A stretch of 64,000 nt of DNA from Pseudomonadota bacterium (lineage in GTDB: Bacteria; Pseudomonadota; Alphaproteobacteria; Acetobacterales; Acetobacteraceae), in the NCBI GenBank assembly GCA_021851785.1, contig JAJZBV010000001.1, forward strand, positions 62,001 through 126,000, written 5' to 3'. The number at the start of each line of letters is the position of its first letter. Position 1 is the first letter of the stretch. Shown piece by piece: positions 3,605-36,175 of this stretch. Both the position numbers and the translations under genes were made by a program. The notes beneath the pieces are model-generated. The model had not been told where the DNA came from and searched no databases. It saw nothing but the letters and a program-made list of their open reading frames with translations.

Positions 3605-3616
3605 GGTTTTTCTCTC

Positions 3617-4402: not shown

Positions 4403-4469
4403 CCCTTGCCAGCGTCGCGCGGGCCGCGTATGGCGGCGGGGAGCGTTTCATCGTTGGAGGATCGGTCGG

Positions 4470-5609: not shown

Positions 5610-5627
5610 GGTCGAGGAAAACCGCCG

Positions 5628-6023: not shown

Positions 6024-6030
6024 GGACGCG

Positions 6031-13239: not shown

Positions 13240-13250
13240 AGGGCATCCCC

Positions 13251-14881: not shown

Positions 14882-16242
14882 GCGAGACGGTTCCCCGCGG
14901 CGCGGCATTCGGGCGCCGCCGCGCGACCCCTGACGCGGCGCCCGCGCCCCTCGGCGCCGAACCCGCGCAAGCGCCGCCGGACACCTCGCTCGGCACGCTG
15001 CGCGGCCTCTGTCTCGAACAGCTCGACCCCGCCGCCGCCGCCGGCATGCCGCAGGAAAAGCTCGCCCAGGCGGTGGAGCGGCTGATCGCCGAGATCGCGA
15101 CCGAGCGGCGCATTCAGCTCAATGCCCGCGAGCAGCGCGAACTCGCGTTCAGCCTCGTCGACGACATGCTCGGCCACGGACCGTTGCAGCCGCTGCTCGA
15201 GGACGAGGCGGTGACCGACATCATGGTCAACGGTCCGGCGCGCGTCTTTGTCGAGCGCGGCGGCAAACTCACGCTCTCGGCGGTGCGGTTTCGCGATGCC
15301 GGCCATGTCGCCAATATCTGCCAGCGCATCGCCGCCGCGGTCGGACGGCGGATCGATGAAGCGAGCCCGATGGTCGATGCAAGGCTGGCCGATGGCTCGC
15401 GCGTCAACATCGTCTTCCCGCCGCTCGCCCTCGATGGGCCCTATCTCTCGATCCGCAAATTCGCCAAGAAGAAGATCGATTTTCCGAAACTGATCGAGTT
15501 CGGCTCGCTGACGCCGCCGGTCGCGCGGGTGCTCGAGATCGCGTCCCGGATCAGGCTCAACGTCATCATTTCCGGCGGCACCGGCTCGGGCAAAACGACG
15601 CTGCTCAACGCGATGTCGCGGCTGATCGACGGCGGCGAGCGCATCGTGACGGTCGAGGACGCCGCCGAACTGCAATTGCAGCAGCCGCATGTCGTGCGGC
15701 TCGAAACCCGGCCGGCCAGTCTCGAAGGGCGCGGCGAGATCAATCAGCGCGATCTGGTGCGCAACGCGCTCCGCATGCGCCCCGACCGCATCATCGTCGG
15801 CGAGGTGCGGAGCGGCGAGGCCTTCGACATGCTGCAAGCGATGAACACCGGCCATGACGGCTCGATGTCCACGGTCCACGCCAACACCGCGCGCGATGCG
15901 CTGACGCGCATCGAGAGCATGGTGCAGATGGGCAATATCGGCCTTCCCGCCCGTGCCATCCGCACCCAGATCGTGAGCGCGATCGATCTCATCGTGCAGG
16001 TCGAGCGCCAGCGCGATGGCGGACGGCGGGTGCTGCAGGTCTCCGAAGTCTGCGGCATGGAGGGCGACGTCGTCACCATGAACGACATCTTTCTCCTCGA
16101 GGTCGAGGGTGAGGGGTTGGATGGCCGGCTTCGCGTGCGCTACCGGGTCAGCCGGGCGCGGCCGAATTTTCATGACCGGCTGACCTATTTCGGCCTGGAG
16201 CGTGCCTGGACGACGGCGCTCGACGATGCGGAGCGCGGCTGA
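14878..16242 (+). CDS. cpaF: Secretion ATPase CpaF/TadA
   Basis: The 454-residue type II/IV secretion ATPase has an N-terminal helical domain, then [18 protein letters not shown] and Walker A GGTGSGKT at residues 233-240. An Asp box ([20 protein letters not shown]), Walker B ([17 protein letters not shown]) and a His box ([20 protein letters not shown]) follow. It drives both extension and retraction of Flp pili. All catalytic motifs are intact. Confidence 0.96.
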
Positions 16243-17201
16243 TGCTCGATCTCCGCCTGATGCTCGCGGGCTTCATCGGCTTGACCGGGCTCGGCATGAG
16301 CGCGCTTTTGCTACAGCGCGGCCATGAACGCGAACAGCTTTGGCAGGCGCGCGTCCGGCGTGTGCTCGACCCGCACGCGCGACAGCCGCACGCGGCCGAG
16401 GCGCCGCCGTTCCGGATCGGTCTCAGGAGCAGCGGCGCCAAACCCTGGCAGCGCGCGGTCGCGCTGTTTGGATTTCATCCCGAGCGGCGCGATCATTATC
16501 CGGTGCGCTGGTGGATTGTCCTGCCGGCCGCCTTGCTCGGCGCCCGGCTGGTGGCCGGGGTCATCGCCAATCTGCTGGGCGGGGCATCGCTTTTTCTCAT
16601 CGTTCCGATCTGGATCCTGCTCTGCCGGCAGATTTTCAAATGGTTCGACGACCGCCGGCGCGACGCCCTGTTTCGCCAATTTCCCGATGCCCTGGCAATG
16701 ATCGTGCGTTCGGTCAGGGTCGGCATTCCGGTGAGCGAGGCGATACGACTGGTCGCGCGGGAAAGCGTCGATCCGACGCGGCGGGAATTCGCCATCATCG
16801 CCGACAAGATCGCGATCGGTATGCTGCTCGATGAAGCGCTGCGGCAGATGGGGGGGCGCAACGATTTGCCGGAATACCGGTTCTTCGCGACGGCGCTTTC
16901 GTTGCAGAGCCAGACCGGCGGCGGTCTCGCCGAAACCCTCGAAAACCTCGCCGATGTCATCCGCAAGCGTGTCGCGATGCGCGAACGCGGCCACGCCTTG
17001 GCGTCGGAGGCGAAAACCAGCGCCGGGATTCTGGCGGCGCTTCCGGTTTTTGCCGGTGCTGGACTTGCCCTGATCAATCCCGGCTATATCGGTGTGCTGT
17101 TCTTCGACCCCAGCGGCAAACGCCTGATGGGCATCGCGCTCGGCATGCTCGCGGGCGGCATCATGGTCATGCGCGGCCTGATCCGGCGCAGCCTGACATG
17201 A
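16242..17201 (+). CDS. tadB: Inner-membrane platform protein TadB
   Basis: The 319-residue protein has two or three N-terminal hydrophobic segments and then a T2SSF domain (FPDALAMIVRSVRVGIPVSE, residues ~148-167; SLQSQTGGGLAETLENLADVIRKR). Two C-terminal helices follow. It forms the inner-membrane platform with TadC. The start overlaps the cpaF stop (TGATG). Confidence 0.92.
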   Translation: MLDLRLMLAGFIGLTGLGMSALLLQRGHEREQLWQARVRRVLDPHARQPHAAEAPPFRIGLRSSGAKPWQRAVALFGFHPERRDHYPVRWWIVLPAALLGARLVAGVIANLLGGASLFLIVPIWILLCRQIFKWFDDRRRDALFRQFPDALAMIVRSVRVGIPVSEAIRLVARESVDPTRREFAIIADKIAIGMLLDEALRQMGGRNDLPEYRFFATALSLQSQTGGGLAETLENLADVIRKRVAMRERGHALASEAKTSAGILAALPVFAGAGLALINPGYIGVLFFDPSGKRLMGIALGMLAGGIMVMRGLIRRSLT

Positions 17202-17211
17202 GCGCCCCGCC

Positions 17212-18138
17212 ATGAAAAATCTCTCGATCCTTGTCTTTACGGCGGCATCCTTTGCAACGCTTCTGGCCGCGAGCGGCGTTCTGCTATGGCGGATGGCCGG
17301 CCAGGAGCGGATCCTCGCGCGCCTTCGCGCCGTCCAGCCGGGCGCCGAGCGGCGACAGCGTGAGCGATCCGGAAATGTAGCCCTCCGGCTGATCGCGGCG
17401 ATCGGCAATGCGATCTCGCGGAGTGGCCTGCTTTCCGGCCGGACCCGCGCCGAACTCGAGCACACGCTCGCGCGGGCCGGTTTCCGCCGCGGGCATGGGT
17501 TGGAGTTATTCGTCGGCGCGAAGCTTCTGCTGCTGGTGACAATGCCGTTGCTCGGCCTCGTGGTTGCGGCACGTCTCGGTCTCGCCGGCGTCTCGCGCGA
17601 TATCCCGCTCGCCGCCGCCGCTTTGGTCGGGCTTTTGGCGCCTGATTTCGCCTTGCGCAGTCTGCGGAAAAACCATTTGAAAGCGCTCGAGCGCGGGCTG
17701 CCGGACGCGCTCGATCTGATGGTGATCTGCACCGAGGCCGGGCTCGGCCTCGAGCCGACGATCCTCAGGGTCGCGACCGAAATCCGCCATGCCCACGCGG
17801 CGGTCGCCGATGAGTTCGCACAGACCGCGAGCGAATTGCGCATCACCTCCGACGTCCGCAGCGCCTTGCTCAATGCCGGCACCCGGACCGGGCTCGATGG
17901 GATCAAGCGTCTGGCGACGACCCTGGTGCAGACCATCCAATATGGCACGCCGCTCAGCCAGGCGCTCAGGACTTTGGCGGCGGAGATGCGCCAGGAGATG
18001 CTGACCCGGTTCGAGGCGCGGGCGGCGCGATTGCCGGTGCTGCTCACGGTGCCGATGATCGTTTTCATTCTTCCTTGTGTTTTTCTGGTCGTCGGCGGTC
18101 CGGCGATGGTGCAGGTGATGCGGATGATGAGCCATTGA
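17212..18138 (+). CDS. tadC: Inner-membrane platform protein TadC
   Basis: The 308-residue T2SSF-domain protein has the TadC-type block LPDALDLMVICTEAGLGLEPTI around residue 165 and GTPLSQALRTLAAEMRQEM further on. It ends with a hydrophobic helix (LPVLLTVPMIVFILPCVFLV). It pairs with TadB as the pilus platform. The gene follows tadB after 10 bases. Confidence 0.92.
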   Translation: MKNLSILVFTAASFATLLAASGVLLWRMAGQERILARLRAVQPGAERRQRERSGNVALRLIAAIGNAISRSGLLSGRTRAELEHTLARAGFRRGHGLELFVGAKLLLLVTMPLLGLVVAARLGLAGVSRDIPLAAAALVGLLAPDFALRSLRKNHLKALERGLPDALDLMVICTEAGLGLEPTILRVATEIRHAHAAVADEFAQTASELRITSDVRSALLNAGTRTGLDGIKRLATTLVQTIQYGTPLSQALRTLAAEMRQEMLTRFEARAARLPVLLTVPMIVFILPCVFLVVGGPAMVQVMRMMSH

Positions 18139-18146
18139 GGCATGAA

Positions 18147-18899
18147 ATGATCAAGCTTGGTCCGTTGTTCACGGTATTGCTCGGCCTTGCGGCCTGTGGC
18201 GGGCCACGTCCGGCCGCGCTCAATCTGCCGCCGCAATCCCCCGCCCTCGGCAGCGGCGAGCCGACCATAAGGGTGGCCGACGCGGCGCTGCTGGGTGGCG
18301 CACCGGCGATGGCGCTGGAGGTCGCCGACGGGATCCTTTCAAAGAATCCCGCGGATTTGTCGGCACTTTTACGCAAGGGAGAGGCTTTGTATCTGCTCAA
18401 GCGCTATGACGAATCGGAAGCTACCCTCGATCGGGTGCTCAAGATCAGCCCGGCCAATACGGCGGCGTTGCTCGGCCTGGGGCGTATCGGGCTCGCGCGT
18501 GACCCCGCAAAGGCGGCGAAACTGTTTTCAGAGGTGCTCGCCAGTGATCGACGCAACGCGGTGGCGCTGAACGATCTTGGTATCGCGCGCGACCTTCTGG
18601 GACAGCATTCGGCGGCGCAACTCGCCTATCGGACGGCACTCGCGATCACGCCGGACATGCTTGCGGCGCGGGTCAATCTCGGCGTCTCGCTCGCGGTGTC
18701 AGGGCACGAGAAGGAAGCGCTCGAAATATTGCGCCCGCTTGCCAATGCCCCGGACATGATCCCGAGGGTACGCCAGGATCTCGCAACGACGCTGGCTCTC
18801 GCGGGGGAAGATGGCGCCGCCCGCGAATTGCTGGCCAAAGATCTCTCATCGGCACAAGTTTCCGAAGCAATGTCTGGCGTGATGCGCCTTCGTGATTAG
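18147..18899 (+). CDS. tadD: TPR lipoprotein TadD
   Basis: The 250-residue protein begins with a lipoprotein signal (LLGLAACGG, Cys17), followed by at least four tetratricopeptide repeats (for example PADLSALLRKGEALYLLKRY, ANTAALLGLGRIGL, NAVALNDLGIARDLLG). TadD is the pilotin-like periplasmic/outer-membrane component of Tad systems. It is the last gene of the locus. An IS remnant begins soon after its stop. Confidence 0.88.
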   Translation: MIKLGPLFTVLLGLAACGGPRPAALNLPPQSPALGSGEPTIRVADAALLGGAPAMALEVADGILSKNPADLSALLRKGEALYLLKRYDESEATLDRVLKISPANTAALLGLGRIGLARDPAKAAKLFSEVLASDRRNAVALNDLGIARDLLGQHSAAQLAYRTALAITPDMLAARVNLGVSLAVSGHEKEALEILRPLANAPDMIPRVRQDLATTLALAGEDGAARELLAKDLSSAQVSEAMSGVMRLRD

Positions 18900-19343: not shown

Positions 19344-19574
19344 CTATAAAGAAAAGTCGTTTTATCACACACCCCTGACCGATTTGCAGAATAGCCGGCT
19401 GCGGCATAGGACGCAACTCAATTGCACCTGCCGTTCTTTTTTTCAACATGGCGCGGGGCAACCTTCCGCGCTCCATCTTGGTTTCTCGGGCCCCTCCTGC
19501 GGCGAAGAGGGGAAGCCGCAGGCCATAAGAGCGTGCACAGCAAAAGGCGAACGCCCGATTTTGGCAGACAGGTG

Positions 19575-20633
19575 ATGGCTAGGAATTTCGGAACAGATCT
19601 GGACAAGATCGATCTTTCTGCCAACGAGAGCCCGCTTGGCCCTGCTCCCGGCGCCATCCGCGCCATCATCGAGGGCGCGCTGAGGGCGCATCGCTATCCC
19701 GACGCCAATGGCTTGGCGCTGAAGGCGGAGCTGGCCGAGATTCTGGGGGTGGCGGCCGAGCAGGTGGTTCTCGGCAACGGCTCGTGCGAGGTCCTCGATC
19801 TGACCGCCCGCGCCGTTCTCGGCAAAGATGACGAGGCGATGATCGGCTGGCCCTCGTTTCCCGCCTACCGATCGATGGTTGACCGCGCCGGAGCCAAGGC
19901 GGTGCTGGTGCCGCTGAAGGACCATGCCTACGATCTCGACGCGATGGCCGAGGCGGTGACCGGTCGGACACGGCTGGTTGTTCTCGGCAATCCCAACAAC
20001 CCGACCGGGCTGACATTCGGGCAGGCGGCCTTCACGCGCTTTCTCGAACGCCTCCCCGGGGAGGTCGTCGTCATCATCGACGAGGCCTATCACGACTATG
20101 TCGGGCGCGCCGACCGCGCCAATGCCCTCGATGAGATCGCTGGTGCCCACGCGCTGGTGGTGACGCGGTCGTTCTCGAAGGCGCACGGCCTGGCCGGCCT
20201 GCGCCTCGGCTACGGGGTTGCGCCGGTGCGGCTGGCGCGCCAGATCGAGGCTCAGCGCCAGCGTTTCAATACCAGCGGGATCGCCCAGGCGGCGGCCATG
20301 GCAGCGCTCGCCGACCACGAACACTTGGCACGTTGCGTCGCCCTCAACGGCGCCGGCCGCCAATGGCTGGAAAACCGGCTGGCGGCACTCGACCTCTTTT
20401 TCCTGCCGTCCGAGGCCAATTTCGTGATGGTGCGGGTGGGCGAGGGCAAGGCGGTCCACGAGCATCTGCGGGCGAGGGGGGTTCTGGTCAAGCCGCTCGA
20501 TGCCTTTGGCCTGCCCGACTATATCCGGGTCAGTGTCGGCCGGCCCGAGGAGAACGAGCGGTTCATCCAGGCCCTGATCGCCGTTCTGCCACAGACCCTC
20601 CCCGGGGAGCCGGCATGCTGCACGCCGATATAA
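19575..20633 (+). CDS. HisC-like class I/II aminotransferase
   Basis: The 352-residue PLP enzyme reads like histidinol-phosphate aminotransferase: DLSANESPLGPAP near the N-terminus, VVLGNPNNPTGLTF around residue 135, EAYHDYV (PLP-phenol Asp/Tyr region), the Schiff-base Lys in TRSFSKAHGLAGLRLGYG, and the C-terminal YIRVSVGRPEENERF with the substrate-carboxylate Arg. HisC relatives also transaminate aromatic and related amino acids, and it sits in a U32/LysR cluster rather than in a his operon. A specialised substrate is therefore likely. I prefer ATG 19575; the frame is open for 51 codons upstream. Confidence 0.75.
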   Translation: MARNFGTDLDKIDLSANESPLGPAPGAIRAIIEGALRAHRYPDANGLALKAELAEILGVAAEQVVLGNGSCEVLDLTARAVLGKDDEAMIGWPSFPAYRSMVDRAGAKAVLVPLKDHAYDLDAMAEAVTGRTRLVVLGNPNNPTGLTFGQAAFTRFLERLPGEVVVIIDEAYHDYVGRADRANALDEIAGAHALVVTRSFSKAHGLAGLRLGYGVAPVRLARQIEAQRQRFNTSGIAQAAAMAALADHEHLARCVALNGAGRQWLENRLAALDLFFLPSEANFVMVRVGEGKAVHEHLRARGVLVKPLDAFGLPDYIRVSVGRPEENERFIQALIAVLPQTLPGEPACCTPI

Positions 20634-21619
20634 CATTTCACCAACTGCGGATTTTTTGTGCCGTCGCCCAGGCGGCAACCTTGACGCGCGCCGGCAAGCA
20701 ACTCAGCTTGGCGCAGCCCACGCTCTCACAGCAACTGGCGAAGCTCGAGCGGAGCATCGGTGCCAAGCTGTTCGACCGCACCCGGAACCAGATGGTGCTG
20801 ACCGAGGTCGGGCGCTTTTTCCTGCGCCAAGCGCAACTCATTCTCGATGAGGTTGACCAGGCGCAAATCGGCCTTGGGGAATTCGCGGCCGGGCTGCGCG
20901 GCGTCATTCGCCTCGCCGGCCTCAATTCGATCATCCGCGTGCTGGTGCCCAACGCCATCGCCCGACTTGCCGAAACCCATCCGGACGTCGAATTCGACAT
21001 TCACGAGACCGCGCCGGCCGAGGCGCTCGACCTGCTTTACAACCGCGCCGTCAATATCGGGCTGATCGCGGCAAATTCCGTTGCCCAGAGCAGCGTCTCG
21101 TTCAAAAAAATTCCGCTCACGGAGGATCCGTACGTTTTTGCGGTGCCGAGCGGGCTGCGACTGGCGGAGGTTCTAGATCCCGATGCCAGCCTGTCGCCCG
21201 CGGAAAGGAAGATCGTCAACAGCTGTATCCAGTTCAATTTTGGCACACAGCATACAAGGCGGATCGCACATTGGTATCAACGGGTGCTGCCGCGCCATCG
21301 GCTGGTCACCCAATGCCGCAGCTACGAAGTGGCGCTCGGCATGGTGCGAGCCGGCCTCGGCGTTTGCCTGGTGCCGGCTTTGACCGCGCATGACGGTCAT
21401 GCCGGGATGGCCGGCATCGACCTTTACGCGACCGACCAGCCCTCCCGGAAGACGGTGGCCTTGGTGCCGGCGCAGTATCTGCGGGTCGAACCATACAAGG
21501 CATTCCTTCGGGCATTACAGGCAGCGGCCGGCACGGTACGTCTGCCCCATATTCTGCCGCCGCCACCCTTCATCGAGTTAGCCGCGGACTCTCACCAGGC
21601 CGATCTCACCTCGGCCTGA
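20615..21619 (+). CDS. LysR-family transcriptional regulator of the U32 cluster
   Basis: The 334-residue protein has an N-terminal winged helix (FHQLRIFCAVAQAATLTRAG, then LSLAQPTLSQQLAKLERSIG at residues ~30-50) and a LysR effector-binding domain. The start overlaps the aminotransferase gene by 19 bases, so the two are co-transcribed, which is uncommon for LysR genes that usually diverge from their targets. The probable target is the promoter at 21620-21812. The effector is unknown. Confidence 0.85.
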   Translation: MLHADITFHQLRIFCAVAQAATLTRAGKQLSLAQPTLSQQLAKLERSIGAKLFDRTRNQMVLTEVGRFFLRQAQLILDEVDQAQIGLGEFAAGLRGVIRLAGLNSIIRVLVPNAIARLAETHPDVEFDIHETAPAEALDLLYNRAVNIGLIAANSVAQSSVSFKKIPLTEDPYVFAVPSGLRLAEVLDPDASLSPAERKIVNSCIQFNFGTQHTRRIAHWYQRVLPRHRLVTQCRSYEVALGMVRAGLGVCLVPALTAHDGHAGMAGIDLYATDQPSRKTVALVPAQYLRVEPYKAFLRALQAAAGTVRLPHILPPPPFIELAADSHQADLTSA

Positions 21620-21642
21620 TTTTTACCGCCGTAGCTGATCAT

Positions 21643-21710
21643 GGAACGCATGTTCCGTGCCGGCGATTCCGCGCCTTCGCAGGCGCACGATGAACGGTTC
21701 TCAACGTTCC
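21643..21710. promoter_or_regulatory. Dyad sites upstream of the U32 genes
   Basis: The 193-base gap between LysR and the first U32 gene contains GGAAC-N4-GTTCC (21643-21656) and a second dyad GAACGGTTC (21692-21700), followed by AACGTTCC. They share the GAAC/GTTC half-site and could bind the LysR protein. An AT-rich stretch (GGCTATTTAAAATCACAATCAC, split here as GGCTATTTAAAA and TCACAATCAC) and GGCTATAGG follow before the start. The assignment is inferred from symmetry and position only. Confidence 0.4.
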
Positions 21711-21812
21711 CCTGCCTGGCTATTTAAAATCACAATCACGGCTATAGGTTCCCGGCCGGTGAAGGCGCCGCTAGCATCGCTCGCAACGTGATCACGCCGG
21801 GGAGGATTTCGC

Positions 21813-22820
21813 ATGGTGATGATGATGGCGCCCGGGGGTACCGGGGAAATGGCCAGGCTGGCGCTCGACGAAGGCGCCGATGCGGTTTACGTCGGGGTTC
21901 TCGGCTGGAGCCGCCGCGGCGCGGAACACGAACTCAACGACGACGAGATCCGGGGAATCATCGACTATGCCGGTGCGCGCGGCAAGGAAGTGCGCGTCGT
22001 CGTCAATACCCTGCCGAGTTCGACCGAAATCCCGATGTTCCTTGATCGCATCGATATGTATGCCGGCTGGGGCGCCAAGGGATTCATGATCAGCGACGTC
22101 GGCTGCATGCGCCTCGTGCATGAGCGACTGCCGCACGTCGCGATCCACACCAGCGTCGGCTGCGGCATCACCAACTTCCAGGATGTCCGTTTCCTCGCCG
22201 AGAGCGGGGCTACCCACATCGTTCTGCCCTATCGCATGACGGTCGAGGAAATCGCCGAGATCAAGGCCAAGACCGGGATCGGCATCGAGGTATTCATGTT
22301 CAAGACGCCTTCCGGCGGCAAGATCTGCCCCGGCAAGTGCATGATGAGCAGCTATTTCAGCTATCGCCACTGGCTGGACGAGAACGGCAAGGATCACTTT
22401 TTCGGCAGCGCCAGCCGAGGCGGCGATTGCCTGCGGGTGTGCCAGTCCAACTGGGAGTTCGGTACCGACGAGGAATCGCTCGGCCAGCCGATGACCATCA
22501 AGACCAATCCGGCGCTGTGGGTGGAGGAACTGCCGGCCTATCTGGCGGCCGGCGTCGATTGCCTGAAGGTTCCCGGTCGCGACCGTTCGGCGCAACTGGT
22601 TCGGGACATCGTGCGCTTCTATCGCACGGTGCTCGATCGCATCGCTGCGGGCGAGACCATCGATTTCACCGCTTACCGCCCTTTGCTGGCGAGCTTCCAT
22701 GAGCGCTGGAAAACCGAGCGGGGATTGCGTGACCGGCGGCTGATCGCCGAGGCCCGGCGCGAAGCGCTTCGTGCCGATCGCCTCACCGCCGCTTCCCCCG
22801 TCTGCGTCCCTGCGCAGTAA
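21813..22820 (+). CDS. U32-family protein, CPGKC subtype (first paralog)
   Basis: The 335-residue TIM-barrel-type protein has the U32 (peptidase U32/YdcP/UbiU) plan: MAPGGTGEMARLALDEGADAVYVG at the N-terminus (here in two pieces, APGG and GADAVYVG), HTSVGCGITN in the middle, and AGVDCLKVPGRDRS late. Cys172, Cys176, Cys206 and Cys210 (ICPGKC and CLRVC) are shared with the paralogs at 23773 and 25700 and are likely Fe-S ligands. The first pair is CxxxC, tighter than the Cx6C of UbiU. Residues 31-35 (GWSRR) are also invariant. Characterised relatives hydroxylate quinone precursors, tRNA or rRNA without O2; the substrate here is unknown. RBS GGGGAGG. Confidence 0.8.
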   Translation: MVMMMAPGGTGEMARLALDEGADAVYVGVLGWSRRGAEHELNDDEIRGIIDYAGARGKEVRVVVNTLPSSTEIPMFLDRIDMYAGWGAKGFMISDVGCMRLVHERLPHVAIHTSVGCGITNFQDVRFLAESGATHIVLPYRMTVEEIAEIKAKTGIGIEVFMFKTPSGGKICPGKCMMSSYFSYRHWLDENGKDHFFGSASRGGDCLRVCQSNWEFGTDEESLGQPMTIKTNPALWVEELPAYLAAGVDCLKVPGRDRSAQLVRDIVRFYRTVLDRIAAGETIDFTAYRPLLASFHERWKTERGLRDRRLIAEARREALRADRLTAASPVCVPAQ

Positions 22821-22852
22821 CCGTCATGACCTCCGGATCGCAAGGAATGTCC

Positions 22853-23770
22853 ATGTTCGAATTGTCGACCGACGTCACCTCGCCGAAGATACTTCGCCGC
22901 GGCGACTATTCCGCCTATGATGCCCTGTATCTTGGCGATTTCTCATGTCCGGACACGCTGGACAATTTCAGCTCGCACCCCGAATACCTGGTTGAAGGGG
23001 TTGAAGCCGTCAAGCTGCAAGGCAAGAAATGCTATCTCCGGCTCCACGCCGTTCCGAGCAACCACGAACTCGGTTCGGTGCGGACAATTATCGAAACGGC
23101 GATGCGGCTGCCGTTTGATGCCTTCGAGGTGCATAATCTCGGTCTCCTCAAGATGCTGCGCGAAATCGGCTGCAACAAGCCGATCCATCTCGGGGTGTTC
23201 GGCAATCTCTACACTGACGCGACCGCGCGCGTGGTGAAGGATTATGGGGTGACGCGCGTCTATCCCAATCCCGAACTCAGCCTCAAGGAGGCCATCTACA
23301 TCCGTGATCAGACACCGATTCAGGTGCTGATGCCGGTGCATGGCAAGATTCCGCTGGTGATCTCGGAGACCTGCTTCATCCTTGAGCATTCCGACCGCCG
23401 GCCGGATACGGGCTGTGGTTATCTATGCACCCGCGAGCATTGGCTGACCCGCCGCGCCGCTGGCGGATGGTCGCTCAAGGATACCGGCCGCATGACCCTG
23501 AGTGGCAGCGATCTCTGCATGCTTGAGCACGTCGACAAGCTGGTCGAGGCGAAGTTCGACGCATTTTATGTCCAGAGTCACGGGGAAAGCGGCGAATATG
23601 TCGCAACCGTCGGCCGCGTGTATCGCGATGCGCTGACCAAGGCCTTCGCCGGCGCGCCGGCCGAAGATCTCGCCGACGCCCTGCGCGAGGTCGGCGCATT
23701 CGCCAAAATGGGTCTGTGCAACGGTTATTACTTCGAGAGCGCCGGTCGGCGCTATGTCGGAAGGGCCTGA
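22853..23770 (+). CDS. UbiV-like U32-family protein
   Basis: The ~305-residue protein belongs to U32 but differs from its neighbours. Counting from ATG 22853, cysteines at 32 (DFSCPD), 174 (ETCF), 188 and 192 (GCGYLC) reproduce the spacing of the four Fe-S ligands of E. coli UbiV (39, 180, 193, 197). UbiV works as a heterodimer with UbiU. By analogy this protein may pair with one of the CPGKC paralogs around it. ATG 22853 has AAGGA at 6 bases; ATG 22826 would add nine residues without a good ribosome site. Confidence 0.7.
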   Translation: MFELSTDVTSPKILRRGDYSAYDALYLGDFSCPDTLDNFSSHPEYLVEGVEAVKLQGKKCYLRLHAVPSNHELGSVRTIIETAMRLPFDAFEVHNLGLLKMLREIGCNKPIHLGVFGNLYTDATARVVKDYGVTRVYPNPELSLKEAIYIRDQTPIQVLMPVHGKIPLVISETCFILEHSDRRPDTGCGYLCTREHWLTRRAAGGWSLKDTGRMTLSGSDLCMLEHVDKLVEAKFDAFYVQSHGESGEYVATVGRVYRDALTKAFAGAPAEDLADALREVGAFAKMGLCNGYYFESAGRRYVGRA

Positions 23771-23772
23771 CC

Positions 23773-24756
23773 ATGCCAACCCTGTTGGCGCCGGGCGGCA
23801 GCCGCGAGATGGCCATTGTCGCCATCGATGAAGGGGCCGACGTGATCTACGTTGGACCACTGGGCTGGAGCCGGCGGCCAGCTGAATCGGAGATGGACGA
23901 CGACGACATCAAGTCGGTGATCGACTATGCCCGCGACCGCAATCGTCAGGTTCGCGTGGTGCTCAATACTTTTCCCAGTCCGTTCGAGATGGAAGGCTTC
24001 ATCGCCAAGATCCGTCGCTATGCGGAGTTCGGTTGCTCCGGATTCATCATCACCGATCCTGGCGCGATCGCGGTGGTGCGCCGCTTGCTGCCGCAGACGG
24101 TGATCCATGTCAGCATCGGCAGCGGCATCACGAATGCCTGGGATGCGCGCTTTTACCGGGATCTCGGGGCGGACATGATCATTCTGCCCTATCGCTGGGA
24201 CGAAAGCGAGATCGAGCGGGTGAGCCGGTGCGCCGATATCGGGCTCGAAGTCTTCCTGTTCGAGACCGTTCAGACAGGAAAGATCTGTCCCGGCAAGTGC
24301 ATCATGTCGAGCTATCTCAAGTTCCGCGACTGGCTCCCGGTGGAAGGCAAGGACGCATTTTTCGGCAGCGCCAATCGCGGCGCTAAGGAATGCTATCGGG
24401 TCTGCCAGGTGCCGTGGGAGTTCGCCAGCGGGCAGGGCGTGGCACAGAGTCTGAAATTGCGCCGCGATGCGCGGCTGATGCTGGAACAGTTGCCGCGCAT
24501 GGTGGCTCTCGGCGTGGAGTGCTTCAAGCTGTCGGGCCGGGAGCGGCCGGTGCCGATGATCCGCGACCTCGTGCGTTTCTATCGCAAGGTGCTGGACGGA
24601 ATCATCGACAAGAGCGCGCTGGATATGAGCGTGTATGCCGGGGAGGCGGCACTTCTCGGCGCGCGCTGGAAGATCGAGAAAAATAAGCGCGTCGACAGTC
24701 TGATCGACCGGGCCGTCCCGCACGAGGCCGAGCCCATGCGCTGGGCAACCGCGTGA
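23773..24756 (+). CDS. U32-family protein, CPGKC subtype (second paralog)
   Basis: The 327-residue paralog of the 21813 protein is alignable almost without gaps in the first 200 residues. LLAPGGSREMA, GWSRR at 31-35, HVSIGSGITNAWD, ICPGKC (Cys172/Cys176), CYRVC (Cys207/Cys211) and GVECFKLSGRERP are conserved. The start follows the UbiV-like gene by 2 bases. The probable role is as for the first paralog: an Fe-S enzyme, or the subunit of one, in an unknown hydroxylation-type reaction. Confidence 0.78.
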   Translation: MPTLLAPGGSREMAIVAIDEGADVIYVGPLGWSRRPAESEMDDDDIKSVIDYARDRNRQVRVVLNTFPSPFEMEGFIAKIRRYAEFGCSGFIITDPGAIAVVRRLLPQTVIHVSIGSGITNAWDARFYRDLGADMIILPYRWDESEIERVSRCADIGLEVFLFETVQTGKICPGKCIMSSYLKFRDWLPVEGKDAFFGSANRGAKECYRVCQVPWEFASGQGVAQSLKLRRDARLMLEQLPRMVALGVECFKLSGRERPVPMIRDLVRFYRKVLDGIIDKSALDMSVYAGEAALLGARWKIEKNKRVDSLIDRAVPHEAEPMRWATA

Positions 24757-25685
24757 CGTCCGCGCCACCTGCCTTGCGCTGCGCCTTCGAGGCTACCGGC
24801 AGCCCGTCTTGGATCATGCGCACGATACAGGAATACGCGCTGGATCGCCGGCACGGATTTCGCCTCGCGCTCGCCCTCGGCCACGACCGTGGCACACGGA
24901 CGCGACGGGCGACCGAAACGGCGCTGGTCGAGGGCACGGCCGATCTTATCGACACCGACTGGATTTCCTTGGCGCGCCATCGCCACGCAGGGATCGGTTG
25001 TGCCGCGGTCTTTCCTTACGGGCGCGTCATGGGTGGGATCGTCGTCGCCGCGGGATCGGGGATCACCGATTTCGACGGTCTGCGCGGCCGGAGGGTCGGC
25101 GTGGTGCGCCGCGACGACAAGAACTGGTCGGTGGTCCGTGGAGCCTGCCTGCTTGGCCGCGGCTTCGACCCCGATACCGAGGCGGAGGTCAGCGAGGCCC
25201 TATCGAAGACGACGCTGGTCGAATGGCTTGAGGCTGGCCGTGTCGATGCCGCTCTTGTTTACTGGCATCTGGTGCCGCGGCTGACGACGACGGGCCGTTT
25301 TCGCCAATTATACGACGTTCTCGACTTGCTCGATCTCCTCGGCGTCGCCTCGCCGCCGACGACTTTCTTCACCTGCCGCGACGAATTTATCGCCGAGCAG
25401 CCCGACGTCATCACCGGCTTCATCGCCGCGTACCGCGAAGCGGTGATGCTGATGCGCGCGGATGGCGCGGTGTGGGATCAGGCGGCGGCACAAACCGGTG
25501 ACCCACCAGAGGTTCTGGACGGCCTGCGCGCCGCCTGGTGCCGCCGGGTGTGCATCGATTGGCGCTCCGACGACCTGGACGATCTCGATCGCCTGTTCGA
25601 ACGGCTGAAATCTCTCGATGGCGAAGGCGCCCTTGGCATTGGCGCCATTCCCGCGGGCACGTTCGCCCTCTTTCCGACGCATTGA
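24753..25685 (+). CDS. Cytoplasmic NMT1/THI5-like (SsuA-type) binding-fold protein
   Basis: The 310-residue protein looks like the periplasmic binding proteins of nitrate/sulfonate/thiamine-precursor transporters. It has DLIDTDWISLARHR, then ITDFDGLRGRRVGVVRRDD, then WLEAGRVDAALVYWHLVPRL. It has no signal peptide or lipobox (it begins MTSAPPALRCAFEATGSPSW), and no permease or ATPase gene is nearby. It probably acts in the cytoplasm as a ligand sensor or as an enzyme; THI5-type proteins of this fold make the thiamine pyrimidine. The GTG start overlaps the preceding stop (GTGA). Confidence 0.7.
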   Translation: MTSAPPALRCAFEATGSPSWIMRTIQEYALDRRHGFRLALALGHDRGTRTRRATETALVEGTADLIDTDWISLARHRHAGIGCAAVFPYGRVMGGIVVAAGSGITDFDGLRGRRVGVVRRDDKNWSVVRGACLLGRGFDPDTEAEVSEALSKTTLVEWLEAGRVDAALVYWHLVPRLTTTGRFRQLYDVLDLLDLLGVASPPTTFFTCRDEFIAEQPDVITGFIAAYREAVMLMRADGAVWDQAAAQTGDPPEVLDGLRAAWCRRVCIDWRSDDLDDLDRLFERLKSLDGEGALGIGAIPAGTFALFPTH

Positions 25686-25699
25686 AAGGAGCAGCCAGC

Positions 25700-26659
25700 A
25701 TGGTTGCATTGATGGGGCCCGGTGGCACCCTGAACATGGCCGTTACCGCGCTGGAACAAGGATGCGATTCCGTGTTCGTTGGTCCCAAGGGCTGGAGCCG
25801 GCGACCGGCGAGCGATGAACTCGACGATGGCGAGATCAACGAATTGATCGCCTGGAGCCGTCCGCGGGGCAAGGACATCCGCATCGCCATCAACGTGATG
25901 CCGTCCCCGCAGGAAATTCCGACGTTCCTCTCGAAGATCGAGCGCTATGTCGGCTGGGGAGCCGGGGGAGTGATGATCTGTGATCCCGGCTGCATCCGGT
26001 TGGTGCATCAACAATTCCCCGATCTCGACATCCATGTCAGCGTCACCGCCGGCATCTTCAACAACGAGGACATTCATTTCTACCGTGCTCTCGGCGCCAA
26101 CATCGTCGTCATTCCCTATCGCTGGGGGACGGCGGAACTCGCGGAGATCCGCGACCAAAGCCAGGTCAAGCTGGAGGCGTTTCTGTTCCAGACCATCAAG
26201 CGCGGCCGCATCTGTCCCGGACGGTGCTATTCCAGCAGTTATTTCCGCATAACCCATCAGCTCGATGCCGACGGCAAGGACCATAATCTCGGCAGCGCCA
26301 GCAAGGGCGGAAGTTGCTACCGGGTCTGCCGGGCGAAGTGGAATCTCGACATCGACGATATCTCCCAGGGCGTGGTGGCCGATCTCAAGGCCACGCCGGA
26401 ACTGCTGCTCTGGGAAATGCCGGACTATGTGAAGCTGGGGGTTGACCGCTTCAAGATTCCCGGCCGCGAGCGTTCGGTCGAACTGGTCGGCGCGATCTGC
26501 GGTTTCTATCGGCGGGTTCTCGACCATGTGCTGGCCGGCAGCGACGACGTCTCAAGATTTGCCGAGGAATGGCACGAGATGCGCGCCCGCTGGGCGCAGG
26601 AGCGCGGCCGTCGCGACAATGCCCGCATCGATGACGCGCAAATGGTTCTGGCACAGTAG
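25700..26659 (+). CDS. U32-family protein, CPGRC subtype (third paralog)
   Basis: The 319-residue third member of the set has ALMGPGGTLNMA, GWSRR at 31-35, HVSVTAGIFNNED, ICPGRC (Cys172/Cys176), CYRVC (Cys206/Cys210) and GVDRFKIPGRERS. It is separated from the preceding gene by 14 bases with AAAGGAG ahead of the ATG. Three paralogs in one operon suggest hetero-oligomers or successive steps on related substrates. This is inferred, not demonstrated. Confidence 0.78.
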   Translation: MVALMGPGGTLNMAVTALEQGCDSVFVGPKGWSRRPASDELDDGEINELIAWSRPRGKDIRIAINVMPSPQEIPTFLSKIERYVGWGAGGVMICDPGCIRLVHQQFPDLDIHVSVTAGIFNNEDIHFYRALGANIVVIPYRWGTAELAEIRDQSQVKLEAFLFQTIKRGRICPGRCYSSSYFRITHQLDADGKDHNLGSASKGGSCYRVCRAKWNLDIDDISQGVVADLKATPELLLWEMPDYVKLGVDRFKIPGRERSVELVGAICGFYRRVLDHVLAGSDDVSRFAEEWHEMRARWAQERGRRDNARIDDAQMVLAQ

Positions 26660-26682
26660 ACGCGACGACAAGGAGCGCCACC

Positions 26683-29292
26683 ATGCACATTGCCGCCCAG
26701 CGCGCCGTGCCTGGCGCGTTCATCCGCGACCTGGCCGATATCGGCGCGGAAGATAGGGCGCTGGTTGGCGGCAAGGCGTTCCATCTCGGCCGGCTGATGC
26801 GCTGTGGCTTCAATGTTCCCCGCGGCTTCTGCATCACCAGCCTGGCCGCGCGCGGCGCCGGCCTGGCCGATGGCGGGCGGGCGTGGCTGTCCGCGCCGCT
26901 GCGTGCCACGGTGGTCGAGGCGTGGCGGCGGGCGGAATTCACGATCGCGGCGGTGCGCAGTTCGGCCAGCGAGGAAGACGGCCGCGAGGCGAGCTGGGCC
27001 GGCATTTTTCCCACCCTGTTGCCGATTACCGATGAGGAGCAACTGCTCGACGCGGTCGCGCAGTGTTTTGCCGCTCTGCACGCGCCGGAGGCGGCGCTCT
27101 ATCGCGACTCACGGCGCGGGACGGTTCGCCCCACCATGTCGGTGCTGGTTCAGGAACTGGTGACGGCGCGGGCGGCGGGCATCATCTACACCGCCAATCC
27201 GCTCACCGGAGAGGATGATGATATCATCGTCAATGCCGTCCACGGCCTGGGCGAGCCTCTGGCGGCCGGCCGTGTCAGCGGCGACGTGTTCGTGCTCGAT
27301 CGCGATGGCAGGCTGAAGGAAACGCGACTGTCGGCGCAGCCATTCATGCTGACGCCCGTCGGCGAAGTGCCGCTGGCCGGCCAGGGATCCCGGCAACCGG
27401 TGATTTCGCCGGACGAAGCCGCAACCCTGGCGCGGCTTGCGGTCGATATCGAAGCGGTGTTCAGCCGCCCGCAGGACATCGAATTCGCCATCGGCGACCA
27501 GGGCATCCATATCGTCCAGTCGCGGCCGATCACCCGATCCGCCGCCGGGGCCACCATCACCAGCAGCGATATCGATGCCTATGTCGCGCGCGAACGCCGC
27601 GCCTTGGCCGCGCGTCTGGCCGCCCGGCGCCGGGACGACCACCTTTCCGACCGCCCGGCGGTGTTCAGCAACGGCAATATCGGCGAGTTGCTGCCCACCC
27701 CCTCGCCAATGAGTTTCGGCCTGTTCCGCGCCATCTTCGCCGCGCGCGACGGGGCGATCGTCGGCGGCCGCCGCGCGCTCGGCTACCGGCTCGCCGATGA
27801 TGGCGCCGAGAATCTGTATGAGATGATCTGCGGCCAGCCTTATTTCAATGTCGAGGTGGACGCCGGCACCTTCGATATCGGGCTGCCGATCGATATCGAC
27901 GAAATCCTGGCCGGCATCGCCCGGGATCCCGCCCGCGCCAATTATCCTGAGTTCGGCCTTTACCGGCAGGGCATCAGCCTCGTGGAAGCCATCCGTCGGC
28001 ACGGTGCCGCTGAGGGACAGCGCCGGCACGACAGGCTATGGGGATTCCACGCCGACATGACGGCCTTCGCCCACGGCTTCCGCGCTCGTTTCGCGAGCGG
28101 CATCGAACCACGCCTCCGCGCCGGCATGAAGGAGGCGAAGCGGTACCGGCCGGCGGCGATGACCGAGGCGAAGCTGCTGGCCTCGTTTCAGGAACGGCTG
28201 GACTATCTGCGGCGGTATGCCTGCGTCTGGTTCGTGGTGGCGGCGCGGCTAGCTTTCTTCTTCGCCGACATGGTGCGCTGGCGGCTCGATCATCATCTCG
28301 GCGACAGCGGCGCGGCCGCAGCCTTGTTGCGGGGGCTTGCCGGCAGCCGCATCACGCGACAGGCCCTGGATCTCGAACGTCTGTCCGCAGGGCGCCTGAC
28401 CCGTGCCGCCTTCCTCGCCCGCTATGGCCACATGGCCTCGAACGAACTGGAAATCATGCGGCCGCGCCTCGTCGAGGAACCGGCGGTGATCGACCGGCTG
28501 CTCCATGACCTGACCCTGTCGGGGCGACGGCCGGCTGAAGAATTCCGCCAGCAGCGCCAGCGCCGTCTGGCGACGGAGCGGGAACTCCGCGGCCGGTTGC
28601 GGGCCGCCGCGGCGCCGGCCGGAGAGATCACGGCGCTGTTCGCCGATCTGCGGTTGGCGCAAACCTTCCTGCCGCTGCGCGAGACCATCAAATACTATTT
28701 CGCCGCCGAATACGCGGCGCTGCGCGCCATTCTCGTCGCCATTAACCGGCGCCTGAGCTGGGCGGAAGACGATGTCTTCCATCTGTACCCCGAGGAAATC
28801 GCCGAGTGTTTCGGCACTTCTCGCGATCTGGCCGGGACCGTCGCGCGGCGCCGGCGCGAGCGCCGGATCGCCGGTTTGCTGGCGCGCCAGCGGCGGCTCC
28901 CGGCGGTGGTGTTCGAAGCCGATCTTGCCGCGCTCGGCGCCTGCTCGACCGGGCTGGCGACAGGGCGGCTCGCGGCGGTTCCGGTGGCGCCCGGCGCGGC
29001 CGTGGGCGTGGTCAGGGTGCTGGACGACGGCGGTGCTTTGCCGCCCGCGGCACTCCATGGCGGCGAGATCATCGTGACCCGCTCGGCCAATCTCGGGCTG
29101 GCGCCCCTGCTGCGCATGGCGGGCGGCTTGGTGGTCGAGGTTGGCGGCATCCTTGCCCATGCCGCTTGTCAGGCGCGCGAGAGCGGCATTCCCGCCGTGG
29201 TGCTCGCCGATGCCACCGCCCGGCTTACCGACGGCATGACGGTCAGCCTCGACGGTGATCGCGGCTTCGTCGAGATCGTCGACCCGCCATAG
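26683..29292 (+). CDS. PEP-synthase/rifampin-phosphotransferase-like ATP and His-domain phosphotransfer enzyme
   Basis: The 869-residue protein has an N-terminal ATP-grasp/PPDK-type nucleotide domain (GGKAFHLGRLMRCGFNVPRG; AVRSSASEEDG; GIIYTANPLTGEDDD; IVQSRPIT near residue 285). A middle domain of no clear identity follows (residues ~300-760), and the C-terminus is a PEP-utilising mobile domain with VEVGGILAHAACQARESG. His826 there is the expected phospho-carrier, close to His825 of Listeria rifampin phosphotransferase, which has the same order and size. It probably phosphorylates a small molecule. The operon context argues for a pathway intermediate rather than an antibiotic. Confidence 0.8.
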   Translation: MHIAAQRAVPGAFIRDLADIGAEDRALVGGKAFHLGRLMRCGFNVPRGFCITSLAARGAGLADGGRAWLSAPLRATVVEAWRRAEFTIAAVRSSASEEDGREASWAGIFPTLLPITDEEQLLDAVAQCFAALHAPEAALYRDSRRGTVRPTMSVLVQELVTARAAGIIYTANPLTGEDDDIIVNAVHGLGEPLAAGRVSGDVFVLDRDGRLKETRLSAQPFMLTPVGEVPLAGQGSRQPVISPDEAATLARLAVDIEAVFSRPQDIEFAIGDQGIHIVQSRPITRSAAGATITSSDIDAYVARERRALAARLAARRRDDHLSDRPAVFSNGNIGELLPTPSPMSFGLFRAIFAARDGAIVGGRRALGYRLADDGAENLYEMICGQPYFNVEVDAGTFDIGLPIDIDEILAGIARDPARANYPEFGLYRQGISLVEAIRRHGAAEGQRRHDRLWGFHADMTAFAHGFRARFASGIEPRLRAGMKEAKRYRPAAMTEAKLLASFQERLDYLRRYACVWFVVAARLAFFFADMVRWRLDHHLGDSGAAAALLRGLAGSRITRQALDLERLSAGRLTRAAFLARYGHMASNELEIMRPRLVEEPAVIDRLLHDLTLSGRRPAEEFRQQRQRRLATERELRGRLRAAAAPAGEITALFADLRLAQTFLPLRETIKYYFAAEYAALRAILVAINRRLSWAEDDVFHLYPEEIAECFGTSRDLAGTVARRRRERRIAGLLARQRRLPAVVFEADLAALGACSTGLATGRLAAVPVAPGAAVGVVRVLDDGGALPPAALHGGEIIVTRSANLGLAPLLRMAGGLVVEVGGILAHAACQARESGIPAVVLADATARLTDGMTVSLDGDRGFVEIVDPP

Positions 29293-29321
29293 GCAACACG
29301 CGCGACCAATTGGGAGGCATC

Positions 29322-30158
29322 ATGCGATTGCTGCGCTATGGCCCGCCCGGGGCCGAAAAGCCGGGCCTGCTCGACGAGGCGGGACGGCTGCACAGTCTGG
29401 CCGGGCGGCTCGCCGATCTCGACGGCCCGGCCCTGGCCCCCGATCGTCTCGATTGGTTGCGCGCCGTTGATCCGGCCTCGTTGCCGCTGGTCGAGGGCAC
29501 GCCGCGGCTGGGCCCGCCGGTGGCCGGGATCGGCAATGTCATCGCCATCGGCGTGAATTACCGCGGCCATGCCAGCATCGTTGCGCTGCCCAACGAACCG
29601 ATCATCTTCTCCAAGCATACCGGCGCGATATGCGGCCCTGATGATCCCATCCGGATTCCCCCCGGTGCCAGCAAGGTCGATTGGGAGGTTGAGCTGGCGC
29701 TGGTGATCGGCCAGCCCGCCCGCCGGGTGCCGGTGGCGCGCGCGCTCGAATACGTCGCCGGCTACATGGTCGGCCACGACATTTCCGAGCGGGATTTTCA
29801 GAGCGAGCGCGGGGGCCAGTTCATCAAGGGCAAATCGTGGAGGAATTTCTGCCCGCTGGGCCCCTGGCTGGTGACCCGCGACGAGGTCGCCGACCCTCAG
29901 GCCCTCCAACTATGGCTCGACCTCAACGGTGAACGGATGCAGGAGTCATCGACCGACGATATGGTCTTCTCCTTGGCCGAGCTGGTCAGCTATGTCAGCC
30001 ATTTCATGGTGCTGCAGCCGGGCGACGTGATGCTCACCGGCACCCCGCCTGGCGTCGGCATGACCCAGGGGCGCTATCTCCGGGCCGGCGACGTGGTGCG
30101 CCTGGGCGTGGCCGGCCTGGGCGAGCAGTGCCAATTGGTGATGCCGGACGGCGATTAG
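29322..30158 (+). CDS. Fumarylacetoacetate hydrolase (FAH) family protein
   Basis: The 278-residue FAH-fold hydrolase or decarboxylase has IAIGVNYRGHA, then KVDWEVELALVIG with the two metal-binding Glu, GHDISERDFQ with the third acidic ligand, FIKGKSWRNFCPLGPW, and MLTGTPPGVGM. The family cleaves C-C bonds in acylpyruvate-type compounds or decarboxylates oxo-acids. The ATG at 29322 has GGGAGG upstream. Its TAG stop shares the TA that flanks a miniature inverted-repeat element. It is the last gene of the U32 cluster. Confidence 0.85.
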   Translation: MRLLRYGPPGAEKPGLLDEAGRLHSLAGRLADLDGPALAPDRLDWLRAVDPASLPLVEGTPRLGPPVAGIGNVIAIGVNYRGHASIVALPNEPIIFSKHTGAICGPDDPIRIPPGASKVDWEVELALVIGQPARRVPVARALEYVAGYMVGHDISERDFQSERGGQFIKGKSWRNFCPLGPWLVTRDEVADPQALQLWLDLNGERMQESSTDDMVFSLAELVSYVSHFMVLQPGDVMLTGTPPGVGMTQGRYLRAGDVVRLGVAGLGEQCQLVMPDGD

Positions 30159-30424: not shown

Positions 30425-31488
30425 TCAGCCGGCCTGCGCCTGAATTGCCATGCGACGCTGCAACCGTCGTTGCAGCTGATCCAGCACCACGGCGGCGATG
30501 ATGACAACTCCCTTGATCACCATCTGCCAGAACGAACTGACCCCAAGCATCACCAACCCGTCCCCGAGGATTCCGATGACAAAGGCGCCGATGATCGTGC
30601 CCCAGATGGTGCCGCGCCCCCCGGCTAGCGACGTGCCTCCCAGCACGGTCGCCGCGATCGCGTTCAGCTCGAACGTCTCGCCGCTCGCCGGATGCGCGGC
30701 CACCAGTTCGGAAGCGACGATCAAGCCGGCGAAGGCGGCGCAAGCGCCGGAGATCATGTAGACGATGAATTTGATGCGATTCACCGGCACGCCGGATAGC
30801 AGCGCCGCACGCTCATTGCCGCCAACCGCGTAGACGCGGCGGCCGAAGGGGGTGCGAGCCGCCAGATAGGCCGCGATCGCGCCCGCCACGGCCAGCGCGA
30901 TCACCGAGACCGGCACCCCGAGAACCGTCCCCGCGCCCAGAATTGGAAAGCCGGTGTTATGGAACTGCGGCCGTCCGACGAGATTGGGGAACGTCTCGCC
31001 GCCGGAAATCAGCAGCGCCGCGCCACGCGCGATATAAAGCGTCCCCAGCGTGGCGATGAACGGCGCGACACTCAACCAGGTGACCAGCAGCCCGTTGATG
31101 GCGCCGACCAGCACACCGGCCGCGATCACGGCCAGGATCACCACCGGCACGTCGGGGAACAGCGTGACATGCCAGAAGGCCAGCGGCAGCCCGCGGTCGA
31201 TCAACGCGCCGGCGATCATGCCGGCAAGGCCGACGATCGAGCCGACCGACAGGTCGATCCCGCCCGTTATCACGACGAAGGTCATGCCGATCGCCAGGAA
31301 CGCGTTGATGGAAACATGCTTGGCAAGCAGCACCAGGGTTTCCAGGGCCAGGAAATTCGGCGCGGTGGCGCTGAAGAAGGCGAACACCACGAATAGCGCG
31401 ATCAGCGTGCGCAGGCTGAGCAGCAGCAGCAGCGGCGAGGTGCGGCGCGGCCGGGAGGGCGAGGCGATCGGAATTTGCGCGCCGCCGC

Positions 31489-31492
<4 letters not shown>
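30425..31492 (-). CDS. Sugar ABC transporter permease (RbsC type)
   Basis: The 355-residue protein has about ten membrane segments and the RbsC/XylH-family blocks INAFLAIGMTFVVITGGIDL, SVGSIVGLAGMIAG and NERAALLSGVPVNRIKFIVY. It forms the membrane channel of a ribose-type importer. It overlaps the ATPase gene by ATGA and is the last gene of the minus-strand transporter group. By context its substrate is probably D-apiose or an oxidised derivative. Confidence 0.9.
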
Positions 31493-33038
<1,546 letters not shown>

Positions 33039-33042
<4 letters not shown>

Positions 33043-33740: not shown

Positions 33741-33750
33741 GGCAGTCCTC

Positions 33751-36171
<2,421 letters not shown>

Positions 36172-36175
<4 letters not shown>

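Follow-up and report, generated by a model that had tools for sequence, protein, structure and literature searches.

Identification of a conserved U32 gene cluster

A 64,000-nucleotide stretch (the window) of contig JAJZBV010000001.1 from an Acetobacteraceae bacterium (assembly GCA_021851785.1) was found to carry a conserved gene cluster encoding a HisC-like aminotransferase, three U32 proteins with a compact cysteine motif (U1, U2, and U3), a UbiV-like U32 protein (V), a relative of the pyrroloquinoline quinone (PQQ) binder PqqT, and a phosphotransferase. The unit extends from about position 19572 to 30158, beyond 26659, where the stretch treated in a preliminary description of this DNA ends; that description covered neither the conserved cluster nor the PqqT-like binding protein nor the tie to PQQ enzymes. 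We regard the cluster as a likely module for hydroxylation without O2, and suggest more tentatively, at slightly below even chances, that PQQ is its product.

When 84,980 species genomes were scanned once, by pattern, with an alignment of the three proteins, 58 loci were returned, a number that is a lower bound. The cluster loci (L007 to L031, n = 25) share at least 47% identity, and L032 to L035 are more distant relatives. The gene order U1-V-U2-binding protein-U3-phosphotransferase (ppdk) was conserved in 22 of the 25 loci; L028 displayed the order V-U-U-binding protein-U-ppdk, while L029 and L030 are interrupted by contig ends. A short-chain dehydrogenase/reductase (SDR) gene was found in 19 of these loci, and in 18 a FAH-family gene adjoins the cluster. 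By record title, the hosts include Rhodoblastus, Aromatoleum, Azoarcus, Thiorhodococcus, Sideroxydans, Ferrovum, Motiliproteus, a Deltaproteobacterium, and Methylomirabilota. The cluster was probably moved horizontally, as only the host genome of the window carries it among 195 genomes, the remainder being 194 relatives, of which five belong to the same genus. When 150 genomes around an Aromatoleum genome were searched, 10 were positive, each with exactly three matches.

Three U32 proteins share a compact cysteine motif

The proteins U1 (P0001; 21813..22820), U2 (P0003; 23773..24756), and U3 (P0004; 25700..26659), all encoded on the + strand, were assigned by translation, Pfam, residue count, and tree to the U32 family, with U1 and U2 of the CPGKC and U3 of the CPGRC subtype. 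Their scores to Pfam Peptidase_U32 (PF01136) were 128, 97, and 97.6 bits, respectively (cut-off 22.4), and U2 and U3 were each 47% identical to U1. In the translations, Cys172 and Cys176 lie within ICPGKC (U1 and U2) or ICPGRC (U3), the second pair is Cys206/210 in U1 and U3 and Cys207/211 in U2, and GWSRR starts at residue 31 in all three, so that every residue position given in the preliminary description (Cys172/176, Cys206/210 or 207/211, and GWSRR at 31-35) holds. The resulting spacing is Cx3Cx29Cx3C, with x30 in U2. The four conserved cysteines expected of U32 oxidases, which are Fe-S hydroxylases, are present in U1, U2, and U3.

Motif conservation was read from a 79-row alignment of 75 operon members and four sister-clade rows (L032 to L035). 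All 75 operon members have Cys172 and Pro173, and all 79 rows have Cys176, Cys206, and Cys210, so the motif is no chance feature. In each of the three barrel-fold proteins, a [4Fe-4S] cluster coordinated by Cys172, 176, 206, and 210 would be expected. GWSRR, which had been described as invariant, is so in the three window proteins only: the tryptophan is replaced by phenylalanine (9) or tyrosine (2) in 11 of the 79 rows, all of them U2 proteins (L012 to L021 and L029). Neither is GWSRR specific to the subtype, as the sister-clade rows (41-44% identity) carry it and lack CPG. The stretch before Cys176 in these four rows is shorter by two residues; three of them read CFTYLGKC, a Cx6C pair like that of UbiU, and L035 is without the first cysteine. 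The unusual CPG[KR]C ligand spacing is real, and the compact form appears to be a derived state in which the first ligand stands at -4 rather than -7 from Cys176.

An AlphaFold model of U1 (79 rows) had a mean predicted local distance difference test (pLDDT) score of 84.8, with mean values of 53 at residues 171-180, 65 at 201-210, and 53-54 at 211-230. Confidence was thus low over the cysteine loops, where the preliminary description placed a possibly altered Fe-S site or labile iron. When this model was used in Foldseek, the U32 protein 5d88 was returned first (template modeling [TM] scores 0.49/0.64), a match that supports the barrel fold and nothing beyond it. U1 by itself had no sequence match in the PDB, and the 79-row U32 profile gave 5d88 as best hit there (E-value 0.023).

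A further U32 type was observed in L032 (2424-3278), L033 (8192-9046), and L034 (31-561). These proteins are 284 residues long where complete, read GWSR[AS], and have a Cx7C first pair and a Cx3C second pair. Their genes come first in a set of three, ahead of V and a protein with Cx6C and GWSRR.

The CPG proteins form a clade outside characterised U32 families

A maximum likelihood tree of 60 rows, in which the window and 11 of the 25 loci were represented, placed the CPG proteins in a single clade (support 98/97). Within it, separate clades were recovered for U2 (100/100), U3 (100/100), and U1 (95/98), the last including one Methylomirabilota copy; support for U1 rose to 100/99 once this copy was left out, and the other two Methylomirabilota copies were not firmly placed. 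The GWSRR group without CPG was the sister of the CPG clade, with UbiU, TrhP, and RlhA outside; the six UbiU rows were separated from the CPG proteins at 100/100. The subtype proposed from the CPG[KR]C motif is therefore monophyletic and lies outside UbiU, TrhP, and RlhA. Because U1, U2, and U3 form separate clades, the three copies are old and have been kept together and are not recent duplicates. The earlier idea that several copies act jointly or in sequence fits these separate clades and the three matches in each positive genome.

The recurrent U32 motif is CX6CX15CX3/4C and that of UbiU is CX6CX16CX38C, according to the portion of Pelosi et al. (PMC6747719) available to us, and the Escherichia coli reference proteins agree, with TrhP and RlhA reading Cx6Cx15Cx3C. 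These same sources uphold the earlier statement that UbiU-type proteins have a wider Cx6C first pair, and the CPGKC spacing differs from the Cx6C of these characterised U32 families. U1, U2, and U3 do not have the UbiU pattern Cx6Cx16Cx38C; UbiU differs both in its first pair (Cx6C versus Cx3C in the cluster) and in its C193/C232, where the cluster proteins have Cx3C at 206/210. TrhP and RlhA, which are U32 RNA hydroxylases, share the family and the Cx3C second pair with the cluster proteins but differ in their Cx6Cx15Cx3C motif and their position outside the CPG clade. We know of no V partner for TrhP or RlhA. U1, U2, and U3 scored 123.4, 100.2, and 106.1 bits to the UbiU profile (NF047963, cut-off 440) and 116.2, 106.2, and 106.8 bits to the TrhP profile (NF011996, cut-off 534), and none reached the cut-off of any NCBIfam equivalog.

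The host genome also has a separate UbiU-UbiV pair. In its UbiU (L001 1492-2487, C32, - strand), the equivalent of E. coli C169 is absent, the stretch reading GTMVEGRC, and there is an additional cysteine four positions ahead of the C193 equivalent, which may reflect a ligand swap.

A UbiV-like partner and a PqqT-like binding protein are encoded between the U32 genes

V (P0002; 22853..23770, + strand) was recognised as a UbiV-like U32 protein by profile scores and alignment. It also exceeded the PF01136 cut-off of 22.4 bits (range of 97-128 bits for U1, U2, U3, and V). Its Cys32, 174, 188, and 192 align with the four cysteines of E. coli UbiV in 29 of 29 rows, giving the UbiV pattern CxnCx12Cx3C with Cx13C in place of Cx12C; its score to the UbiV profile (NF047965) was 62.3 bits, below the cut-off of 275. 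The cluster thus resembles the UbiU-UbiV system of E. coli and others in belonging to the U32 family, in having U-type and V-type proteins in one operon, and in the four conserved cysteines of each, but differs from it in having three U-type copies per one V.

The binding protein (24753..25685, + strand) was identified by profile, Foldseek, and hydropathy as PqqT-like and apparently without a signal peptide. PqqT of Methylobacterium extorquens, solved with bound PQQ (9b1u, 9b1v, and 9ooz), was its nearest solved relative in both sequence and fold. In the profile search of the PDB, PqqT (9b1u) was matched at an E-value of 8.4e-41 versus 1.4e-4 for the best other protein. The AlphaFold model (mean pLDDT 92.9) was matched by Foldseek to PqqT with PQQ at TM scores of 0.88/0.91 and 26% identity, with an E-value (2.7e-26) about 11 orders of magnitude below that of the best other protein (3.1e-15). 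DKNW and YW stretches are common to the two proteins, and the PqqT Y161W variant falls within the YW stretch; the DKNW lysine may be the equivalent of PqqT K142, a residue presented in the available text of PMC12828617. The two differ in that PqqT is described, in the source available in part, as periplasmic, whereas the cluster protein appears to be cytosolic. This location is suggested by the N-terminal hydropathy peak, which reached 0.51 in the window protein and ranged from 0.09 to 1.53 in 25 relatives, versus 3.48 in a second PqqT-like protein encoded near the cluster in L026. An ordinary periplasmic transporter component was set aside as the role of the binding protein because of its lack of a signal-like N-terminus.

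The cluster co-occurs with PQQ-dependent enzymes

Profile searches were performed on 25 cluster-bearing genomes (the host genome and those of L007 to L028, L030, and L031) and on an even sample of 398 Pseudomonadota that includes the host genome. The PQQ-dependent alcohol dehydrogenase (TIGR03075) scored above cut-off in 25 of 25 cluster genomes and 0 of 14 controls, and in 95 of the 398 Pseudomonadota. Likewise, among the 150 genomes around Aromatoleum, the dehydrogenase was present in 10 of 10 cluster carriers versus 49 of 140 others. UbiV was above cut-off in 21 of the 25 cluster genomes versus 121 of 398, and UbiV and the dehydrogenase occurred together in 21 of 25 versus 15 of 398 (the host genome being one of the 15). 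PqqC, PqqB, and PqqE were above cut-off in 21, 21, and 19 of the 25, respectively. Four genomes (L022, L024, L026, and L028) had no pqqB or pqqC above cut-off, yet possess PQQ dehydrogenases; this absence is not firm, since all four are metagenome-assembled genomes of unstated completeness.

The L026 genome had none of pqqB, pqqC, and pqqE above cut-off, and here about 1.4 kb, including one small open reading frame (ORF), separates the cluster from a divergent PQQ dehydrogenase gene (4897-6690, - strand, 741 bits). Beyond the dehydrogenase are (i) a PedF cytochrome c550 (177 bits, cut-off 122) and a weak MoxJ-type match; and (ii) the PqqT-like protein with a signal-like N-terminus (27% identical to the window binding protein), a permease-like gene below cut-offs, and an ORF resembling an ATP-binding cassette (ABC) ATPase. 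No other locus among the window and L007 to L035 was found by tblastn to carry a dehydrogenase of the L026 type, and tblastn with the host pqqB, pqqC, and pqqE (E-value up to 1e-6) found no match in these same loci.

The host genome has two PqqC genes above cut-off (C30:23716-24426 and C26:60724-61434), one of them in the pqq operon, and a single PqqE above cut-off.

Accessory genes and regulation

Upstream of U1, a pyridoxal phosphate-dependent, HisC-like aminotransferase is encoded at 19572..20633 (+ strand; start uncertain, GTG 19572 or ATG 19575), which scored 288.7 bits to NCBIfam hisC (cut-off 276.6). Homologues were found upstream of U1 in L007, L009 to L026, and L031, whereas the one in L028 follows ppdk; the lysine motif sought in this family was present in 20 of 21 homologues. 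A LysR-type regulator follows (20630..21619, + strand; the 25 NCBIfam LysR matches listed were all below cut-off), and is in the same place in six loci (L007 to L011 and L025) as well as the window, lying between the HisC-like gene and U1 in L007, L009 to L011, and L025. A terminator-like hairpin at 21596-21618 is a consensus match only, with no excess over shuffles; the promoter and terminator scans as a whole gave no excess over shuffles.

Downstream of U3, the ppdk gene (26683..29292, + strand) encodes a phosphotransferase resembling phosphoenolpyruvate (PEP) synthase, in which Pfam detected only a PPDK_N ATP-binding domain (PF01326) and a swivelling His domain (PF00391), separated by an unassigned middle. 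It shares these two domains with the rifamycin phosphotransferase/PEP synthase family but differs in showing by Pfam no PEP-binding barrel, the third domain of PEP synthase, and in scoring below all 23 NCBIfam cut-offs, with rifamycin phosphotransferase best and PEP synthase models next. The enzyme is probably active, as all 23 homologues longer than 700 residues retain the swivel-His motif. The FAH-family protein (hydrolase/isomerase; 29322..30158, + strand) was nearest to NCBIfam 2,4-didehydro-3-deoxy-L-rhamnonate hydrolase (343 bits, cut-off 500, scored from 29325). In L026 and L031 the FAH protein is more distant (36-37%) and encoded upstream of hisC, so the activity was perhaps recruited more than once.

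Several neighbouring genes were also recorded. Sugar ABC transporter-like genes and a four-carbon acid sugar kinase-like gene adjoin the FAH gene of the window on the - strand (30425-36175), and the FAH gene could belong with these instead. A Tad/Flp pilus-like set (secretin, CpaE-like, CpaF-like, and TadB/C-like) lies upstream of the cluster at 11836-18899. In L030 (Thiodictyon, 4281-6308), the cluster is followed by a radical-SAM-like ORF and a UbiU gene, placed as such by the tree. In L028 (Methylomirabilota, 80-3765), a second PqqT-like copy, a fumarate-reductase-like flavoprotein, and a gene with a weak binding-protein match lie beside the cluster.

A proposed route to PQQ without oxygen and its alternatives

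We propose, at a probability just short of even, that the cluster is a mobile biosynthetic module for PQQ without oxygen in which U1, U2, and U3 serve as U-type subunits. PqqB acts on the Glu-Tyr precursor, whose tyrosine ring it hydroxylates. The final oxidation, by PqqC, uses O2 according to the available portion of PMC12423496. U32 oxidases hydroxylate without O2, and in anaerobic ubiquinone synthesis the oxygen comes from prephenate, as stated in the accessible part of PMC11574389. By analogy with UbiUVT, which stands beside the O2-dependent ubiquinone hydroxylases, the module would replace the O2-dependent steps of PqqB and/or PqqC. U1, U2, and U3 would share the one V as UbiU pairs with UbiV, and each U-V pair may carry out a ring oxygenation or its equivalent with a putative prephenate-type oxygen donor. 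The intermediate, a soluble aromatic poly-acid, would be held for the three hydroxylases by the cytosolic PqqT-like protein, a role modelled on UbiT, itself proposed to hold ubiquinone intermediates. The phosphotransferase perhaps phosphorylates a hydroxyl, and the aminotransferase might take as its substrate either the precursor or the keto acid remaining from the oxygen donor; the SDR and FAH proteins may have roles here too. Simple replacement of missing PQQ genes was rejected in view of the ordinary pqqB and pqqC in 21 of the 25 genomes, which leaves a parallel anaerobic route, as with UbiUVT. A variant ubiquinone pathway was set aside because of the separate UbiV in 21 of the 25.

A number of observations weigh against the assignment to PQQ, whose basis is genomic. 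In the 21 genomes with the ordinary pqqB and pqqC, PQQ can be accounted for without the cluster, and PQQ dehydrogenases in genomes lacking pqq genes can also depend on imported PQQ. Only a single locus showed a PQQ enzyme gene physically linked to the cluster, and UbiV was not above cut-off in 4 of the 25 genomes. The Fisher tests treat related genomes as independent (about 12 lineages, judged by title and similarity), so that significance is overstated. The binding protein shares only about 26% identity with PqqT, itself a periplasmic protein. The PQQ pathway, as given in the available portion of PMC12423496, has no step for the HisC-like, SDR, FAH, or phosphotransferase genes, and in the window no close SDR was found, the only relatives being those at 46449 (31%) and 61191 (30%), far from the cluster. 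Finally, no general FNR box was detected upstream of hisC (22 regions) or U1 (24 regions): the sole perfect site among the hisC regions was TTGATATAGATCAA in L025, 101 bases before hisC, the only single-mismatch site upstream of U1 was in L027, and the mean best mismatch was 3.27 versus 3.85 in shuffles for hisC and 3.71 versus 3.91 for U1.

An O2-independent hydroxylation module could instead make another aromatic product used with quinoproteins, such as a derivative of PQQ or a chelator that binds the metal of lanthanide-type PQQ dehydrogenases. The dehydrogenase co-occurrence and the L026 linkage speak for this reading too, the aminotransferase, phosphotransferase, SDR, and FAH suggest chemistry beyond the end steps of PQQ, and the binding-protein fold carries other ligands, with Thi5, SsuA, and MqnD among the Foldseek hits; we nonetheless regard this as unlikely, PqqT being by far the closest solved relative by the Foldseek E-values above. 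Anaerobic catabolism of an aromatic or amino-acid substrate by transamination, three hydroxylations, phosphorylation, SDR oxidation, and FAH C-C cleavage, with PQQ enzymes co-occurring through life style, is improbable to a similar degree. The LysR regulator in six loci and the window, the affinity of the FAH protein to the rhamnonate hydrolase, the ABC ATPase genes near L013, L014, and L020, and the origin of 7 of the 25 loci in Aromatoleum or Azoarcus, which are aromatic degraders, all point toward it. Set against these are the kinship of the binding protein to PqqT, the PQQ dehydrogenase in every cluster genome, and the presence of the cluster in Sideroxydans and Ferrovum (L018 and L019), which to our knowledge are not degraders.

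Salvage, repair, or breakdown of PQQ imported to the cytoplasm by a PqqT-type ABC importer would account for what neighbours the cluster in L026 (the PqqT-like protein with a signal-like N-terminus, a permease-like gene, and an ABC-ATPase-like gene) and for the PqqT-like protein of the cluster itself, which is without a signal. We consider this very unlikely, as such a permease was matched in L026 only (one query against the window and L007 to L035) and there is no clear reason for PQQ to need three hydroxylases.

Relation to known work and implications

Final PQQ steps without oxygen are a matter of speculation in the available portion of PMC12423496 (2025), where Hyphomicrobium is noted to grow on methanol with nitrate replacing oxygen. 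A pqqAED-puuD-serC-pyrD cluster of Hyphomicrobium denitrificans is proposed there for anaerobic PQQ synthesis, its role being called speculation. As described in that portion, it is like the present cluster in the O2-independent route proposed for it and in having an aminotransferase gene, but unlike it in containing copies of pqqA, E, and D. The term U32 is absent from the main text of PMC12423496. Both this paper and PMC10878069 name UbiUV and PQQ and, in the text available, treat UbiUV as ubiquinone enzymes only. Among the literature matches listed from open-licence PMC articles (preprints not included), none joined U32 proteins with PQQ synthesis, and none of those listed concerned U32 proteins in the cluster hosts.

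In its fullest form, the PQQ proposal would be a complete or near-complete O2-independent route built on a three-U-plus-one-V set with a relocated ligand, spread horizontally among denitrifying, phototrophic, and iron-oxidising bacteria whose quinoproteins operate under anoxia; we hold this form to be possible but doubtful. Known PQQ synthesis requires O2, and the cluster provides a concrete, testable anaerobic candidate in bacteria other than Hyphomicrobium. If the proposal is correct, the module would be the sole PQQ route in lineages without pqqBCE, one V subunit would serve three different U subunits with altered ligand spacing, and the U32 oxidases, known for ubiquinone and RNA, would extend to a soluble cofactor.

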